In this document: positions 4,291-11,182 of the stretch, in pieces
Layout of the letters: every line of letters begins with the position of its first letter
How positions within the stretch are numbered: position 1 is the stretch's first letter
Assembly (NCBI RefSeq): GCF_002886185.1
Contig: NZ_KZ614147.1
Coordinates: forward strand, 1,089,187 to 1,153,186
DNA: 64,000 bases
Direction: 5' to 3'
Source of the DNA: Salipaludibacillus neizhouensis
GTDB lineage: Bacteria; Bacillota; Bacilli; Bacillales; Salisediminibacteriaceae
Position numbers and translations under genes: made by a program
The notes under the pieces: generated by a model
Databases searched by the model: none
The model's input: only the letters and a program-made list of their open reading frames with translations
Told to the model about the DNA's origin: nothing

Positions 4291-5118
4291 ATGGAAGGTA
4301 TTTATGCGATATGGCAACGCGATATAACGAAATTTTTCCGCGATCGAGCCAGGCTCATTGGCTCGTTTTCCATGCCTATATTATTTTTACTTATTTTCGG
4401 CGGAGGTATGAGTGGAACGATGGAAGGCCTGATTGGCATGGGCGGAGAAGGCATGGCCGATGACTTTAATTACGTTTCTTTCATTTTTCCGGGAATTGTG
4501 GCGATGACGCTTTTAATGACATCTGTATTTTCCTCTTTGTCTGTCATTGAGGACAAAAACTTTGGATATATGAAAGAAATACTCGTTTCACCTATTTCCC
4601 GTGTGAATATTGCGATTGGAAAGATGCTTGGAGCGGCTACAGTGGCGACGATTCAAGGGATCATGTTATTTTTATTAATCCCTTTAATTGGACTTAGCTA
4701 TCCATTCATTTCCCTCATTCAAGTGCTGCCGGTTATGTTTTTACTAGCGTGTGCACTATCATCATTTGGACTGCTCATTGCAAGTCTCTTAAAGTCGACG
4801 CAAGGATTTCAGCTTATTGTTCAGATTCTTGTTATGCCAATGATTTTCTTATCAGGTGCGTTATTCCCAGTCAATAATATGCCTGCTTGGATGGATGTGA
4901 TTGTCAAAATTAATCCCGTGACATACGGTGTAGATGTAATGAAGAAAATCATGGTTGATGTAGAAAGCCTGTCACCGATGGTTCAAGAAGCAATGGGACT
5001 AAATCTAAGTGTATTTGGTCGCACGGTTACCATTTTTGAAGAGATTTTATTTATAATCTTATTTACGGTCATTCTCATTTTACTCGCAACGGTCAGTTTT
5101 AGAAGAGCAAATGCATAA
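4291..5118 (+). CDS. ABC-2 type exporter, permease subunit
   Basis: A 275-residue membrane protein of the ABC-2/DrrB family. It has an N-terminal cytoplasmic start (WQRDITKFFRDRARL), about six membrane segments, the conserved loop VIEDKNFGYMKEILVSPISR and the late motif FLSGALFPVNNMPAWM. AGGAGGT lies ten bases upstream of the ATG. It pairs with the ATPase encoded just before it; the pair resembles daunorubicin-type and Na+ or drug exporters, and the cargo cannot be told. Confidence 0.9.
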   Translation: MEGIYAIWQRDITKFFRDRARLIGSFSMPILFLLIFGGGMSGTMEGLIGMGGEGMADDFNYVSFIFPGIVAMTLLMTSVFSSLSVIEDKNFGYMKEILVSPISRVNIAIGKMLGAATVATIQGIMLFLLIPLIGLSYPFISLIQVLPVMFLLACALSSFGLLIASLLKSTQGFQLIVQILVMPMIFLSGALFPVNNMPAWMDVIVKINPVTYGVDVMKKIMVDVESLSPMVQEAMGLNLSVFGRTVTIFEEILFIILFTVILILLATVSFRRANA

Positions 5119-7596: not shown

Positions 7597-8628
7597 CTAC
7601 ATCGCACAAATATCTTTACCAAATGGGTCAGATAGCATGCCTTTTTCACGATCAAAAACAAGATTCCCATTCACAATTGTAGCTTCAACGTTTCCCTGGA
7701 CTTCTTGACCGACATATGGTGAATATGGATGGCGAAAAAGAATGTCTTCTTTTTTGAAAACTGTTTTACTGTCGGAATGATAGATTGTTAGGTTCGCTTG
7801 ATTGCCGATTTTTATTTCACCTTGTTTTTCCAAGCTCGGAAAACGGGAGGCGACATTGGCAGTTAGCATAGGGAGGACCTCCTCTAGAGATAGACCCCGG
7901 CTCATTGCCTGACTTAAAAAGGCTGTTGTTCCAAACTGAACGCCTTGAATTCCTCCCCATGCTTCCCAAATATTTTCGTTGCCTGCTTGTTTCATCGAAA
8001 GAGGACAGGGGGAATGATCGGAACTGATACAATCAATCTGTTTATTTTTGACCTTCTCCCAGAGCCCATTGACACAATCAGAGTCTCGAAGTGGCGGTGC
8101 GCATTTTAGCAAGGGACCTTGTTGAATAAAATCTTCTTCGTTAAAAATTAAATAATGTGGACATGTTTCAAGGGAAACATCGACACCTGTTTTTTTGGCT
8201 GATTGGATTAATTCCACTACTTTCGGATGACTGACATGGACGATATGTACCTTTGTCCCGTACTTTGCTGCCTCTTCCATGGCTAGTTCTGCAGCTTTCA
8301 ATTCTGCGTCAACGGGCCTGCTGTCAAGAAAAGCACTAACATCCTTTCGATCGGTCTGACGGATGGGATGCGCGAATTGTTTGATCGTATCTTCCCATTC
8401 TGCGCGAAGGGCAAGAACGGCTCCTTTTTGACCGCAATACGCCATCGCACGTGATAAGGCTTGTCTATCGAGACGCTTAAAATCGTCAATCCCACTTTCC
8501 GATAAAAATCCTTTAAATCCAACAATTCCAGTATTGAACATAGCATCCAAGACAGTGTCATCGCTGGCCACGTCTGCTGTCATACCTGCCCAGAGGCCGT
8601 AATTGGTATGGGATCGATTCTCCCGCAT
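7597..8628 (-). pseudogene. pucH: Allantoinase (PucH-like), N-terminal third missing
   Basis: A 343-codon open frame matching allantoinase from about its residue 110 to the C-terminus, including NYGLWAGM, GIVGFKGF, KVHIVHVSHPK, ETCPHYL, CISSDHSPC and the final dihydroorotase-like strands. Family members have about 450 residues. The missing N-terminus holds the HxH metal ligands and the first barrel strands, so an active enzyme is unlikely. Reading upstream, homology stops a few codons before the ATG at 8628 and a TAA stop follows. At that exact point a pucA fragment begins on the other strand. This indicates a deletion through two divergent genes. Confidence 0.85.
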
Positions 8629-8889
8629 AGTTTTGAAAGGGATAAATTTATTTTACAGAATCTGTTGCCTTTTCAGAATGAGTTAGCGTACTTGGGTGTT
8701 TTAGGTCCGACGCGACGAACATCGAGATTACTGGATGGCAATCCTATCCCAGCATTTGTTTCTTCCCCCATTGGTGTCGATATTTATGCAGATGGTGCAG
8801 AGGAAATCAGTATAAGTGTCATCGCAGAACTGATCCAAGTTAGAAACCTGCGGGCACGACAGAACTTCGGAAACCTTGTCGTTTGTTAA
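8629..8889 (+). pseudogene. pucA: XdhC/PucA-like molybdoenzyme accessory protein, C-terminal fragment
   Basis: The frame reads SFERDKFILQ, AYLGVLGPTRRTSRLL, VSSPIGVDIYADGAEEISIS and VIAELIQVR. This is the conserved C-terminal part of XdhC/PucA proteins, which insert or sulfurate the molybdenum cofactor of xanthine dehydrogenase. The N-terminal two thirds are absent. The homology begins at the breakpoint with pucH. An open in-frame ATG exists at 8608, but it lies inside pucH sequence. The stop overlaps the TTG start of pucB by 7 bases, the usual pucA-pucB arrangement. Confidence 0.8.
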
Positions 8890-9521
8890 AGAAGAAAAAG
8901 TCATCTGTATGTGCGGTGATATTGGCGGCGGGCACAGGTTCTCGAATGGAAAATGCGACACCGAAGCAACTACTGCCATTAAAGGGACAATATATTCTTG
9001 AACGTGTGATTCATCAAGTCCAGAAACATCCATTTGAACAAATCATCTTAGTGGTAGGACATGAAGCGGATGCACTGAAAAGGAAAACTAAGATTGATTC
9101 TGCAAGGGTGCAGTGGCTGACTAATGAAGATTACCTGCGAGGGCAAAGTACATCGTTTCTTACAGGTCTCCGAAACGTGCGACCGTCTATTTCCTCAGCC
9201 ATGGTATTTCTAGGGGATCAGCCGTTTATTCTCGATACTACGATAGCTGCGATTTTCAAGCATGGAGCTTCAAAGTCTGAGCGAGAGGCAGCTGGATTTG
9301 TGATACAACCGTGCTTTAAAGAAGTTCCTGGACATCCAGTTTATTGGGGGAATATTCAAACGTTATCCTTGTCGGACATATCAGGTGACAGGGGAGGACT
9401 GCAACAGATGAAAACAGTGAGGAAAGAAGCCATGGAAGTGAAGGATCCTTTTATCTCCTTTGATATAGATACACCGGAGGACTTCACTTCTGCAAAAAAA
9501 ATGGCTCATTATCTTACGTAG
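8883..9521 (+). CDS. pucB: Molybdenum cofactor cytidylyltransferase-like protein (PucB/MocA type)
   Basis: A 212-residue MobA-like nucleotidyltransferase. The signature LAAGTGSRM binds the nucleotide; FLGDQPF supplies the metal-binding Asp, and SGDRGGLQQM and DIDTPEDF are family motifs. It would attach CMP to molybdopterin for xanthine dehydrogenase. The start is TTG, overlapping the pucA stop. The gene is intact, but the xanthine dehydrogenase subunits pucC, pucD and pucE do not follow and its own promoter was probably removed with the 5' half of pucA. It may be a relic without a client enzyme nearby. Confidence 0.8.
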   Translation: MLKKKKSSVCAVILAAGTGSRMENATPKQLLPLKGQYILERVIHQVQKHPFEQIILVVGHEADALKRKTKIDSARVQWLTNEDYLRGQSTSFLTGLRNVRPSISSAMVFLGDQPFILDTTIAAIFKHGASKSEREAAGFVIQPCFKEVPGHPVYWGNIQTLSLSDISGDRGGLQQMKTVRKEAMEVKDPFISFDIDTPEDFTSAKKMAHYLT

Positions 9522-9590
9522 TCGTTGTTCTATACCTAGGATGTCGCTTAGTATAAAAAATAACTAGTATAAAAATAACAAATAAAAAGT

Positions 9591-9660
9591 CAACTTCGTA
9601 TAACCTCAAAAATATGGCTTGAGGGTTTCTAATAGGAGCCGTGATTTCCTAACTACGAAG
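9591..9660 (+). ncRNA. Purine riboswitch aptamer, guanine class
   Basis: P1 is CTTCGTA (9594-9600) with TACGAAG (9654-9660). P2 is formed by CCTCAA and TTGAGG and encloses the L2 loop AATATGG. J2/3 reads GTTTCTA. P3 (TAGGAG / TTTCCTA) encloses the L3 loop CCGTGAT, whose CC pairs with GG of L2. Aligned with the B. subtilis xpt aptamer there is no gap; the specificity base 74 is C (9653) and base 51 is U, the guanine/hypoxanthine type rather than adenine. All six P3 pairs form. Confidence 0.88.
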
Positions 9661-9697
9661 AAGGTGCGTAACAAGCATCTTCTTCGTAGTTTTTTTA
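9651..9697 (+). terminator. Riboswitch expression platform: terminator that overlaps P1
   Basis: The arms AACTACGAAGAAG (9651-9663) and CTTCTTCGTAGTT (9679-9691) are extended by GTGC/GCAT and followed by a run of T. The 5' arm contains A72-A73-C74 and the whole 3' strand of P1. Ligand-bound aptamer and terminator therefore exclude each other, and ligand binding should permit read-through. This is the pbuE-like ON layout. Confidence 0.85.
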
Positions 9698-9838
9698 TAC
9701 TTATTAGTTATAGAGATTGTTCTAGCTTTTGAACAGAGCTATTTTGATCTTTTCAAAATAGTTAAGGTTTAGAAAGCATTTTAAATAAAAGAGGCTGTAC
9801 GATTTTCTGCTAAAAACATTACTATAGGAGGAACATTT

Positions 9839-11182
9839 ATGACGACAATATGGATAAAAAATGCTGAAATTATTACGATGAACGCCTACGATGAGCAATT
9901 TATCGGTGATGTTTTTATAGAAAACGATACGATTAGGGAGATTGGAAAAAACCTGCACTATCCTGAAGCCGATAAGGTGATCGATGCAACAAACCGTGTC
10001 ATTACACCTGGTTTTATTCAAACGCACATTCATCTCTGTCAAACAATTTTTCGCGGAAAAGGAGATGACTTAGAACTGATGGATTGGCTAAAGAAGCGGA
10101 TCTGGCCACTTGAAGCTGCCCATGACGAGGAGTCGATCTATTACTCCGCATTACTGGGGATCGGCGAATTAATCCAAAGTGGCACAACGTCGATTGTAGA
10201 TATGGAGACGGTTCATCACACTGATTTTGCATTTCAGGCGATTGAGCGTACGGGAATTCGTGCATTGTCAGGTAAAGTTATGATGGACAAAGGTAATGAG
10301 GTCCCGCTAGCATTACAGGAAAAAACGGGTGAATCGATTCAACAAAGTGTTGATCTTATGGAGAAATGGCATAAGAAGGATGCCGGAAGAATTAATTATG
10401 CTTTTTCCCCAAGATTTGTTGTTTCGTGTACGGAGGAACTATTAAAAGAAGTGAGTGATCTTTCGAAAAAGCATCACGTTTATGTTCACACTCATGCGTC
10501 TGAAAATAAAGGAGAAATTGAGATTGTAGAATCCGAAACAGGAATGAGAAATGTTGTTTACCTGGATCATCTTGGACTTGCGAATGAGCGATTAATTTTA
10601 GCTCACTGTGTTTGGTTAAGTGAGGAAGAGAAACAAATCATTCAAAGGAAAAGAGTGAATGTCACTCACTGCCCAGGATCTAACTTAAAGTTGGCTTCCG
10701 GGGTTGCGGAAATTCCGGATCTATTAAATGCCCATATATGTGTCAGCCTTGGAGCAGACGGCGCCCCTTGTAACAATAATTTAGATATGTTTAATGAAAT
10801 GAGGTTGGCCGCTCTCATTCAAAAACCGGTTCATGGCCCCACGGCTATGGATGCAAAAACAGTGTTTAAAATGGCGACAATCGATGGAGCTAAGGCAATG
10901 GGCATGGAAAATGATATCGGCAGTTTAGAGGTTGGAAAAAAAGCTGATTTGAATATTATGAATCTGAATGATTTTCACATGTATCCGTCCTATGATGTTG
11001 ATACGATCTCCCGAATTGTATACTCTACGACGAGGGCAGATGTGGAAACAACCATTATTAACGGGAAAGTAGTAATGGAAAACCGTATCATGAAAACACT
11101 TGATAAAGAGATCGTTTTACACGAAGCTAATAAATCAATCAGCCGACTCATTAAAAGAGTCCCGGAAATACCGTCTCCTTAA
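9839..11182 (+). CDS. Amidohydrolase of the purine/adenosine-type deaminase group
   Basis: A 447-residue metal-dependent deaminase (ATZ/TRZ-like subgroup). Metal ligands are visible: HIH in FIQTHIHLCQ, His in VHTHASENKGE, His in LAHCVWLS and Asp in SLGADGAPCNN. Relatives include 5'-deoxyadenosine, SAH and MTA deaminases, 8-oxoguanine deaminase and some guanine deaminases. The segment GKGDDLELMDWLKKRIWPLE is shared by this group. AGGAGG precedes the ATG. The guanine-class riboswitch upstream, wired as an ON switch, favours guanine or a close analogue as substrate; that is inference from regulation. A strong terminator follows. Confidence 0.8.
   Translation: MTTIWIKNAEIITMNAYDEQFIGDVFIENDTIREIGKNLHYPEADKVIDATNRVITPGFIQTHIHLCQTIFRGKGDDLELMDWLKKRIWPLEAAHDEESIYYSALLGIGELIQSGTTSIVDMETVHHTDFAFQAIERTGIRALSGKVMMDKGNEVPLALQEKTGESIQQSVDLMEKWHKKDAGRINYAFSPRFVVSCTEELLKEVSDLSKKHHVYVHTHASENKGEIEIVESETGMRNVVYLDHLGLANERLILAHCVWLSEEEKQIIQRKRVNVTHCPGSNLKLASGVAEIPDLLNAHICVSLGADGAPCNNNLDMFNEMRLAALIQKPVHGPTAMDAKTVFKMATIDGAKAMGMENDIGSLEVGKKADLNIMNLNDFHMYPSYDVDTISRIVYSTTRADVETTIINGKVVMENRIMKTLDKEIVLHEANKSISRLIKRVPEIPSP

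Follow-up and report, generated by a model that had tools for sequence, protein, structure and literature searches.

Does a guanine-class riboswitch that stands before a deaminase gene in Salipaludibacillus turn this gene on when its ligand is bound, and is guanine also the substrate of the enzyme? The question was raised by an earlier note, made from the sequence alone, on a 64 kb stretch of DNA (hereafter the window), in which a guanine-type ON switch was linked to a purine-type deaminase that would break guanine down. The underlying observation, a guanine-class aptamer with an overlapping terminator before a deaminase gene, is confirmed as real, and the proposed link is supported and has been strengthened by comparison with relatives. 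We consider it probable that the whole model holds, namely that a guanine-class aptamer on a pbuE-type platform precedes a guanine deaminase gene and renders it guanine-induced.

Aptamer and terminator in the window

An Rfam search of the 64 kb window identified the purine riboswitch family RF00167 (Purine) at 9576-9675 on the + strand (69.6 bits, E 3.3e-10, gathering score 37), and no other family reached its gathering score in the window. The leader and the gene comprise the following features:

9594-9660 (+): purine riboswitch aptamer of the guanine type, a P1-P2-P3 three-way junction, from the RF00167 match and the pairs listed below
9651-9691 (+): intrinsic terminator, arms 9651-9667 and 9675-9691, loop 9668-9674, T tail from 9692
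9661-9681 (+): upper part of the terminator, seven pairs (9661-9667/9675-9681), coexisting with the aptamer in the chain to 9682
9692-9838 (+): remaining leader with the Shine-Dalgarno sequence AGGAGG at 9826-9831, by direct reading of the sequence
9839-11182 (+): amidohydrolase of 447 aa, most likely a guanine deaminase (predicted), from the NF005557 match and active-site motifs

The aptamer consists of P1 (9594-9600/9654-9660), P2 (9604-9609/9619-9624, plus an A9610/C9618 mismatch) and P3 (9633-9638/9646-9651); relative to the Rfam consensus it has two one-base deletions, both in the seventh P3 pair. Positions within it are given in xpt numbering, which agrees with the residue names of PMC3764141. 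According to the available text of that paper, four residues contact the purine in known structures, and the window keeps all of them: U22 (9601), U47 (9626), U51 (9630) and C74 (9653), with A73 at 9652. Together with the RF00167 match, these residues bear out the guanine-class aptamer with U51 and with C74 at 9653 that the earlier note had described, and its two structural remarks were also correct, since the GG of L2 (9616-9617) faces the CC of L3 (9639-9640) and P3 is fully paired by six standard pairs, one of them G-U. Adenine is ruled out as the ligand by C74, which is found in the window and in all 69 deaminase-linked aptamers described below, an adenine riboswitch needing U74.

Three positions or pairs of the window aptamer, none of them mentioned in the earlier note, depart from the conserved sequence: position 53 (9632) has A in place of a conserved C, position 66 (9645) has U in place of a conserved A, and the pair 54-72 is U-A instead of C-G. 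Both C53 and A66 belong to base triples that are reported as fully conserved in the available text of PMC3764141, and with A53 and U66 the affinity could be lower or the specificity changed. Compared with class guanine-I, the window aptamer retains the purine contacts C74, U51, U47 and U22 and lacks the triple A23-G46-C53, having A at 53; it is filed here as an RF00167 aptamer of the guanine type, its sequence not firmly placing it in guanine-I.

The terminator has 17 pairs, seven of them G-C, is followed by TTTTT, and reaches -26.1 kcal/mol in the hairpin search; it is the longest of six terminator-like sites in 2.9 kb, compared with 2.1 +/- 1.5 such sites in shuffles. Its stem is four pairs longer than the arms 9651-9663/9679-9691 given in the earlier note, whose overlap with J3/1 and the P1 3' strand nevertheless stands. 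The shared bases, 9651-9660, are the last base of P3, J3/1 with C74, and the P1 3' strand, and they form the first ten bases of the terminator 5' arm; the P1 3' strand and J3/1 thus lie within that arm (9651-9667), which is the defining arrangement of a pbuE-type platform. Because the aptamer and the terminator share these bases and are mutually exclusive, the ligand should favour read-through, and from this anatomy the expected direction is ON, with ligand keeping transcription going.

Folding of the growing chain, calculated in 5-base steps and at chosen chain ends for ligand-free RNA and with kinetics left aside, gave the aptamer as the best fold for chain ends from 9660 to 9682 and the terminator from 9685. 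The terminator leads by 4.4 kcal/mol at 9686, by 12.0 kcal/mol at 9696 and by 13.6 kcal/mol at 9700. The hairpin 9661-9681 is, by analogy, a likely toehold comparable to P4 of pbuE. A logic-reversing antiterminator had been named in the earlier note as a finding that would overturn its reading, and apart from the terminator no competing hairpin was seen after 9660 in these folds.

Two further observations concern the flanks. The + strand from 9521 to 9594 shows no recognisable promoter, and the leader 3' of the terminator contains a hairpin at 9739-9761 (CTATTTTGA with TCAAAATAG) that is not followed by a T tail.

Layout and aptamer signature in relatives

The deaminase was traced by a genome scan of which the best 80 of 487 relatives were used, a sample that leans to close relatives, and an aptamer model (R1) built from 8 aptamers gave 76 matches in 95 sources. 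Merging of identical gene sequences (the gene of L010, for example, equals that of L007) reduced 94 deaminase loci to 89, of which 70 have an aptamer match, 69 of them upstream of the gene and one, in L058, after it. The aptamer-bearing loci are spread over Bacillaceae, Fictibacillaceae and Paenibacillaceae. The other 19 of the 89 orthologues lack an aptamer, which is therefore dispensable for the enzyme; on the deaminase protein tree 8 changes of aptamer presence or absence are needed, among relatives that are not independent. RF00167 was confirmed in 14/14 loci chosen among those with an R1 match (13 upstream and L058 after the gene; L093 lies exactly at the gathering score). Within the genus Salipaludibacillus the gene is present in four of the eight genomes searched, with an aptamer and an overlapping terminator upstream in 4/4, and RF00167 matches both the window and its three gene-bearing genus relatives. 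At the level of the family, the gene occurs in 14 of 35 genomes and an R1 match precedes it in all 14, two of these matches being weak (L093, 36.6 bits; L099, 39.7 bits).

The layout was scored as ON when the strongest hairpin before a T tail had -8 kcal/mol or less and its 5' arm contained at least 5 of the 8 P1 3' bases. By this rule 60 of the 69 deaminase-upstream aptamers are ON, compared with 1 of 34 control purine riboswitches of the same family, a control set that is biased to canonical aptamers, since it is made up of the top scorer in each of 30 family genomes, out of 35, and four riboswitches of the window's own genome. The 30 family controls were chosen by score and not by downstream gene, and none is at a deaminase site; the four own-genome controls precede an NCS2-type permease, guaA, an xpt-type gene with a permease and a purE-type operon (named from their frames). 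The single control scored as ON (L116) is doubtful. A census covering all 36 riboswitches counted in the genus gave ON in 4/4 deaminase-linked cases and in 0/32 others. The earlier reading of an ON layout is thus upheld by a terminator that holds the P1 3' strand and by the conservation of this layout in relatives.

The 60 ON hairpins represent 55 distinct ones (L098 included), and in 55/55 C74 pairs with a G of the terminator. Covariation is evident at stem positions 83-88, each of which shows four to six standard pair types, so that pairing in the stem persists although the bases vary.

Nine of the 69 deaminase-upstream loci do not follow the ON rule. In L097, one of the nine, and in L098, which passes the rule and has no convincing T tail, the complement of the P1 3' strand enters or abuts the ribosome-binding site, an arrangement that would also be ON, and L098 looks translational. 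This complement sits further upstream in L082, is found only inside the gene in L093, and at a length of at least 5 bases is absent in L037, L041, L061, L072 and L099. The outer arms in L051 (AGCTAC/GTAGCT) match around a long insert, beyond the 65-base limit of the hairpin search.

Some leaders have features of their own. Fictibacillus loci L041 and L072 (about 4886-5000) have an aptamer without a terminator, and a pyrimidine-rich stretch there can pair with the ribosome-binding site directly ahead of the gene. The leader of L007 between terminator and deaminase is filled by a tandem array (849-1488) of 12.6 copies of units of about 51 bases, which carry self-complementary GAACGTCG and CGACGTTC parts. 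Antisense control, considered on account of the strand of L008, was rejected, as this locus is given in contig orientation and aptamer and deaminase both lie on its minus strand.

The deaminase-linked aptamers differ from the controls in several bases. The pair 54-72 is C-G in only 9/69, compared with 33/34 controls; G73 replaces A73 in 52/69 versus 0/34; and C53 is present in 59/69 versus 34/34. Two of the purine contacts are kept almost throughout, U51 in 68/69 and C74 in 69/69. Position 53 within the genus is A in the window and U in L007-L009, so that C53 is found in 0/4 deaminase-linked members, compared with 32/32 of the other riboswitches, and U66 of the window is absent from the three deaminase-bearing relatives. 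An insertion in J2/3, which the window does not have, occurs in 33/69 deaminase-linked aptamers and is U in 31; extra bases in the J3/1 columns are found only in L058 and L072. In the distinct ON hairpins the terminator pairs position 72 in 50/55 and position 73 in 54/55. Since the terminator must open the pair 54-72, a weak pair would make strand exchange easier, and the simplest reading of the weak 54-72 pair and G73 is a tuning for strand exchange and terminator pairing.

A different reading of the same changes is that the aptamer has come to bind another ligand, be it xanthine, hypoxanthine, 8-oxoguanine or a nucleoside, and that a guanine analogue may be the preferred substrate of the enzyme as well. 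It would account for the changes near the pocket, at 53 and 66 in the window and at 73 in relatives, and for the skewed distribution of C53 and G73; according to the available texts, published variants with altered ligands are also located at degradation genes (PMC9295807), and GuaD-like enzymes with guanine-analogue substrates exist (PMC13054789). We give it a low probability, however, considering that all four purine contacts remain in the window and U51 and C74 in nearly all relatives, and that terminator pairing and easier strand exchange can explain the changes at 54, 72 and 73.

The deaminase and its gene neighbourhood

By score the enzyme is a member of NF005557, the NCBIfam family of 5'-deoxyadenosine deaminase (718.8 bits, cut-off 522), and not of the guanine deaminase family TIGR02967 (261 bits, cut-off 375.4); its match to PRK12393 (234 bits) is below the cut-off of 543. 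Although not a TIGR02967 member, it may work like a guanine deaminase, as judged from its motifs. Residues Q68, K146, D150, P191, R192 and F193, as well as H219, E222, H256 and D307, are invariant in 89/89 orthologues; position 87, which is R in 72/89 and K in 17/89, was given no weight. Q68 aligns with the glutamine of the E. coli (6ohb) and human (2uz9) guanine deaminases, with which the enzyme shares the HxH..Q, GKV-MD and PRF motifs, and it has both the glutamine after beta-strand 1 and the Asp-His-Glu machinery used here as a test for guanine deaminases. The nearest solved relatives depend on the part of the chain. For residues 58-262 the three best are the guanine deaminases 6ohb, 2uz9 and 6oh9, and for residues 100-260 the nearest are guanine deaminases as well, whereas MTA/SAH-type or unnamed amidohydrolases outrank them in the more N-terminal residues 40-125, and the whole chain is nearest to the MTA/SAH deaminase 4f0r, which has Met at the place of the Gln and no PRF.

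Adenine nucleosides lack the exocyclic oxygen of guanine. It is this oxygen that the GuaD glutamine binds, according to the available text of PMC12828455, which describes the residue as confined to the GuaD cluster, with a glutamine of CodA at another place. The glutamine is mostly kept in the AtzB cluster too, whose enzymes nevertheless act poorly on guanine and favour N2,N2-dimethylguanine or 8-oxoguanine (PMC13054789, available text), and for this reason the term guanine-type is firmer than guanine for the present enzyme.

The gene neighbours of the deaminase were tabulated for 83 loci numbered below L090 (with 1.5 kb flanks for L007-L009 and some loci cut by contig ends; the totals of 63 and 19 in this table both exclude L058), and members of neighbour clusters were assigned by similarity to the annotated member of the cluster. 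The neighbours include an OHCU decarboxylase-like gene at 13 loci, XdhC-like at 9, MocA-like at 7, HIU hydrolase-like at 7 and the xanthine dehydrogenase large-subunit cluster at 6, and none of these five xanthine/urate gene clusters was found in the flanks of the 30 Paenibacillus loci, as far as clustered frames are concerned. The order at L011 is pucD, pucE-like, XdhC-type, the riboswitch with the deaminase, OHCU decarboxylase, urate oxidase, HIU hydrolase and allantoate amidohydrolase, where pucD and the four genes after the deaminase score above their cut-offs, the pucE-like gene just below and the XdhC-type gene below. An adenine deaminase-like gene adjoins 12 loci, 9 of which have no aptamer.

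Two related aptamers were observed at other genes. At L135:2599-2677 (-) a C74 guanine-type aptamer with G53, ON by the rule, precedes an adenine deaminase gene (687.9 bits, cut-off 472.5), and at L058:6579-6658 (+) a guanine-type aptamer, whose P1 overlaps a terminator as read by eye, follows the deaminase and precedes a xanthine dehydrogenase-type operon, in which the matches to pucE and pucD do not reach their cut-offs.

These data bear on the possibility that the switch is a guanine-class ON switch and the enzyme a nucleoside deaminase, acting on 5'-deoxyadenosine or MTA/SAH, with guanine signalling purine plenty. The NF005557 score, the whole-chain relationship to 4f0r and the adjoining adenine deaminase-like genes favour it; the GuaD-type glutamine, which like the PRF and GKV-MD motifs never varies among the 89 orthologues, and the xanthine dehydrogenase and urate genes that adjoin the deaminase in some relatives make it unlikely. 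On this mixed evidence, in which we let the motifs decide, a guanine-type deaminase is the better guess than the NCBIfam name. Guanine as the likely substrate, as put forward in the earlier note, is favoured by the motifs and at odds with the family name, and the argument for it depends on the active-site evidence given above.

The window itself has a broken neighbourhood upstream of the riboswitch:

7597-8628 (-): allantoinase-like frame, about the first 113 profile positions missing (NF004839, 331 bits, cut-off 631, starting at 114 of 451)
8608-8889 (+): XdhC-type maturation gene (xanthine dehydrogenase), a C-terminal remnant (PF13478 XdhC_C, 40 bits, profile 49-125 of 125)
8883-9521 (+): MocA/PucB-like nucleotidyltransferase, molybdenum cofactor cytidylyltransferase type (TIGR03310, 122.9 bits, cut-off 186.45; PF12804, 91.8 bits)

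The first two frames, both N-terminally short, meet head to head at 8608-8628, and the XdhC remnant matches residues 119-199 of 208 of the open frame in L009. Neither the xanthine dehydrogenase large subunit (E <= 1e-100) nor uricase (E <= 1e-30) was found in the genome of the window, while the three deaminase-bearing genus relatives have both within about 6 kb of the deaminase. The truncated frames, which are what a deletion would leave, and these two absences suggest that a cluster for purine degradation was lost at 7597-8889. The surviving deaminase and switch would fit guanine-to-xanthine salvage, and an xpt-type gene and purine permeases (named from frames) are kept in the same genome.

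One could also suppose that the strain, having lost the rest of the pathway, is about to lose the switch and the gene, in line with the missing genes, the stumps of the XdhC and allantoinase-like frames and the U66 that only the window has in comparison with its three relatives. We regard such decay as very unlikely, given a deaminase frame open over 447 aa with its catalytic residues, an intact aptamer and terminator, and the use that the conversion of guanine to xanthine could still have in salvage.

Proposed mechanism and comparison with known riboswitches

An ordinary OFF guanine riboswitch with an overlooked antiterminator would follow the rule of its class, and 33/34 controls have their terminator away from P1, but it is so improbable here that we reject it, because with its 3' strand inside the terminator's own 5' arm P1 cannot promote termination, the growing-chain folds after 9660 have no other competing hairpin, and the layout recurs in 60/69 loci.

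The preferred model is therefore a guanine-induced ON switch, and the ligand, the direction of control in cells and the activity of the enzyme are the parts of it that we infer. The aptamer would fold first as RNA polymerase moves off, and the hairpin 9661-9681 would then serve as a toehold. In the absence of ligand, the terminator 3' arm would oust the P1 5' strand and halt transcription by capturing P1, J3/1 and the base of P3. Bound guanine, or perhaps hypoxanthine or xanthine, would lock C74 and P1 in the junction and block strand exchange, the polymerase would read into the deaminase gene, and excess guanine would thereby bring about its own conversion to xanthine.

More tentatively, it is possible, though we doubt it, that the aptamers at deaminase genes form an ON subclass of the purine riboswitch, distinct also in its ligands, that runs a purine-degradation regulon. 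Such a subclass would be marked by G73 in most members, a weak 54-72 pair and, in the genus, loss of C53; its regulon would include guanine deaminase, xanthine dehydrogenase (L058) and adenine deaminase (L135), and would be the degradative mirror of the OFF guanine regulon of synthesis and uptake within the same cells.

The RNA itself may be long listed: the first G-box survey, by Mandal in 2003, reportedly included an element from Bacillus halodurans upstream of what was at that time named ssnA, and L064 (Halalkalibacterium halodurans) carries a deaminase-linked guanine-type element. Searches of open-licence literature, which leaves out most subscription papers, yielded no report of a guanine-type ON switch with C74 and U51 linked to a deaminase, and the available texts on guanine riboswitches and guanine deaminase do not report this arrangement. 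The word deaminase is absent from the survey PMC3766115 and occurs once in PMC2258182, in a reference title on an adenosine deaminase A-riboswitch.

If the preferred model is right, one genome would use the same ligand-binding fold in opposite wiring, OFF for purine making and import and ON for guanine breakdown. The system allows one to test the re-tuning of an aptamer for strand exchange (positions 53, 54-72 and 73), whether or not the ligand has changed too; it provides an independent argument for re-naming the deaminase clade labelled 5'-deoxyadenosine deaminase by NCBIfam; and such natural guanine-induced ON switches, as predicted here, would be of use for biosensors.

With guanine-I riboswitches (xpt, guaA, permease and purE types) the window shares the RF00167 aptamer and U22, U47, U51 and C74; these riboswitches, however, are typically OFF, have their terminator elsewhere in 32/32 non-deaminase cases of the genus, and as controls show a C53 and a C54-G72 pair that are not kept in the window. 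The comparisons with guanine-II and xanthine-II rest on the available text of PMC9295807, which predicts ON wiring for guanine-II (at phosphoribosyltransferase genes), xanthine-II (at allB and others) and a guanosine/2'-deoxyguanosine variant, and thus contradicts the statement of the earlier note that the ON layout is known mainly from adenine pbuE. Guanine-II riboswitches, found in Paenibacillus, bind guanine and have U51 and the predicted ON layout in common with the window; by the definition in that text they are mostly at phosphoribosyltransferase genes and have a one-base J2-3 insertion and other xanthine-II-like changes, and membership was rejected, as the window lacks the insertion. 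Xanthine-II resembles the window in being predicted ON at purine degradation genes (allantoinase, xanthine dehydrogenase, dioxygenase); it is defined there by U51G and insertions in J2-3 and J3-1, and was rejected for a window that keeps U51 and has neither insertion. The xanthine-I (NMT1) riboswitches differ from the window in both fold and ligand (PMC7373994, available text).

The closest known system is the adenine riboswitch of Bacillus subtilis pbuE, an ON switch in which, according to the available text of PMC7707468, the terminator exchanges strands through P1, J3/1 and P3 unless ligand blocks it, with P4 as the toehold. The window has the same layout for strand exchange, a short hairpin as the likely toehold and the ON arrangement, with C74 of the guanine type in place of U74. 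The product of pbuE is an efflux pump, and in the window a deaminase gene stands in its place. Judged by its anatomy, the window system is a pbuE-type wiring joined to a guanine-type aptamer.
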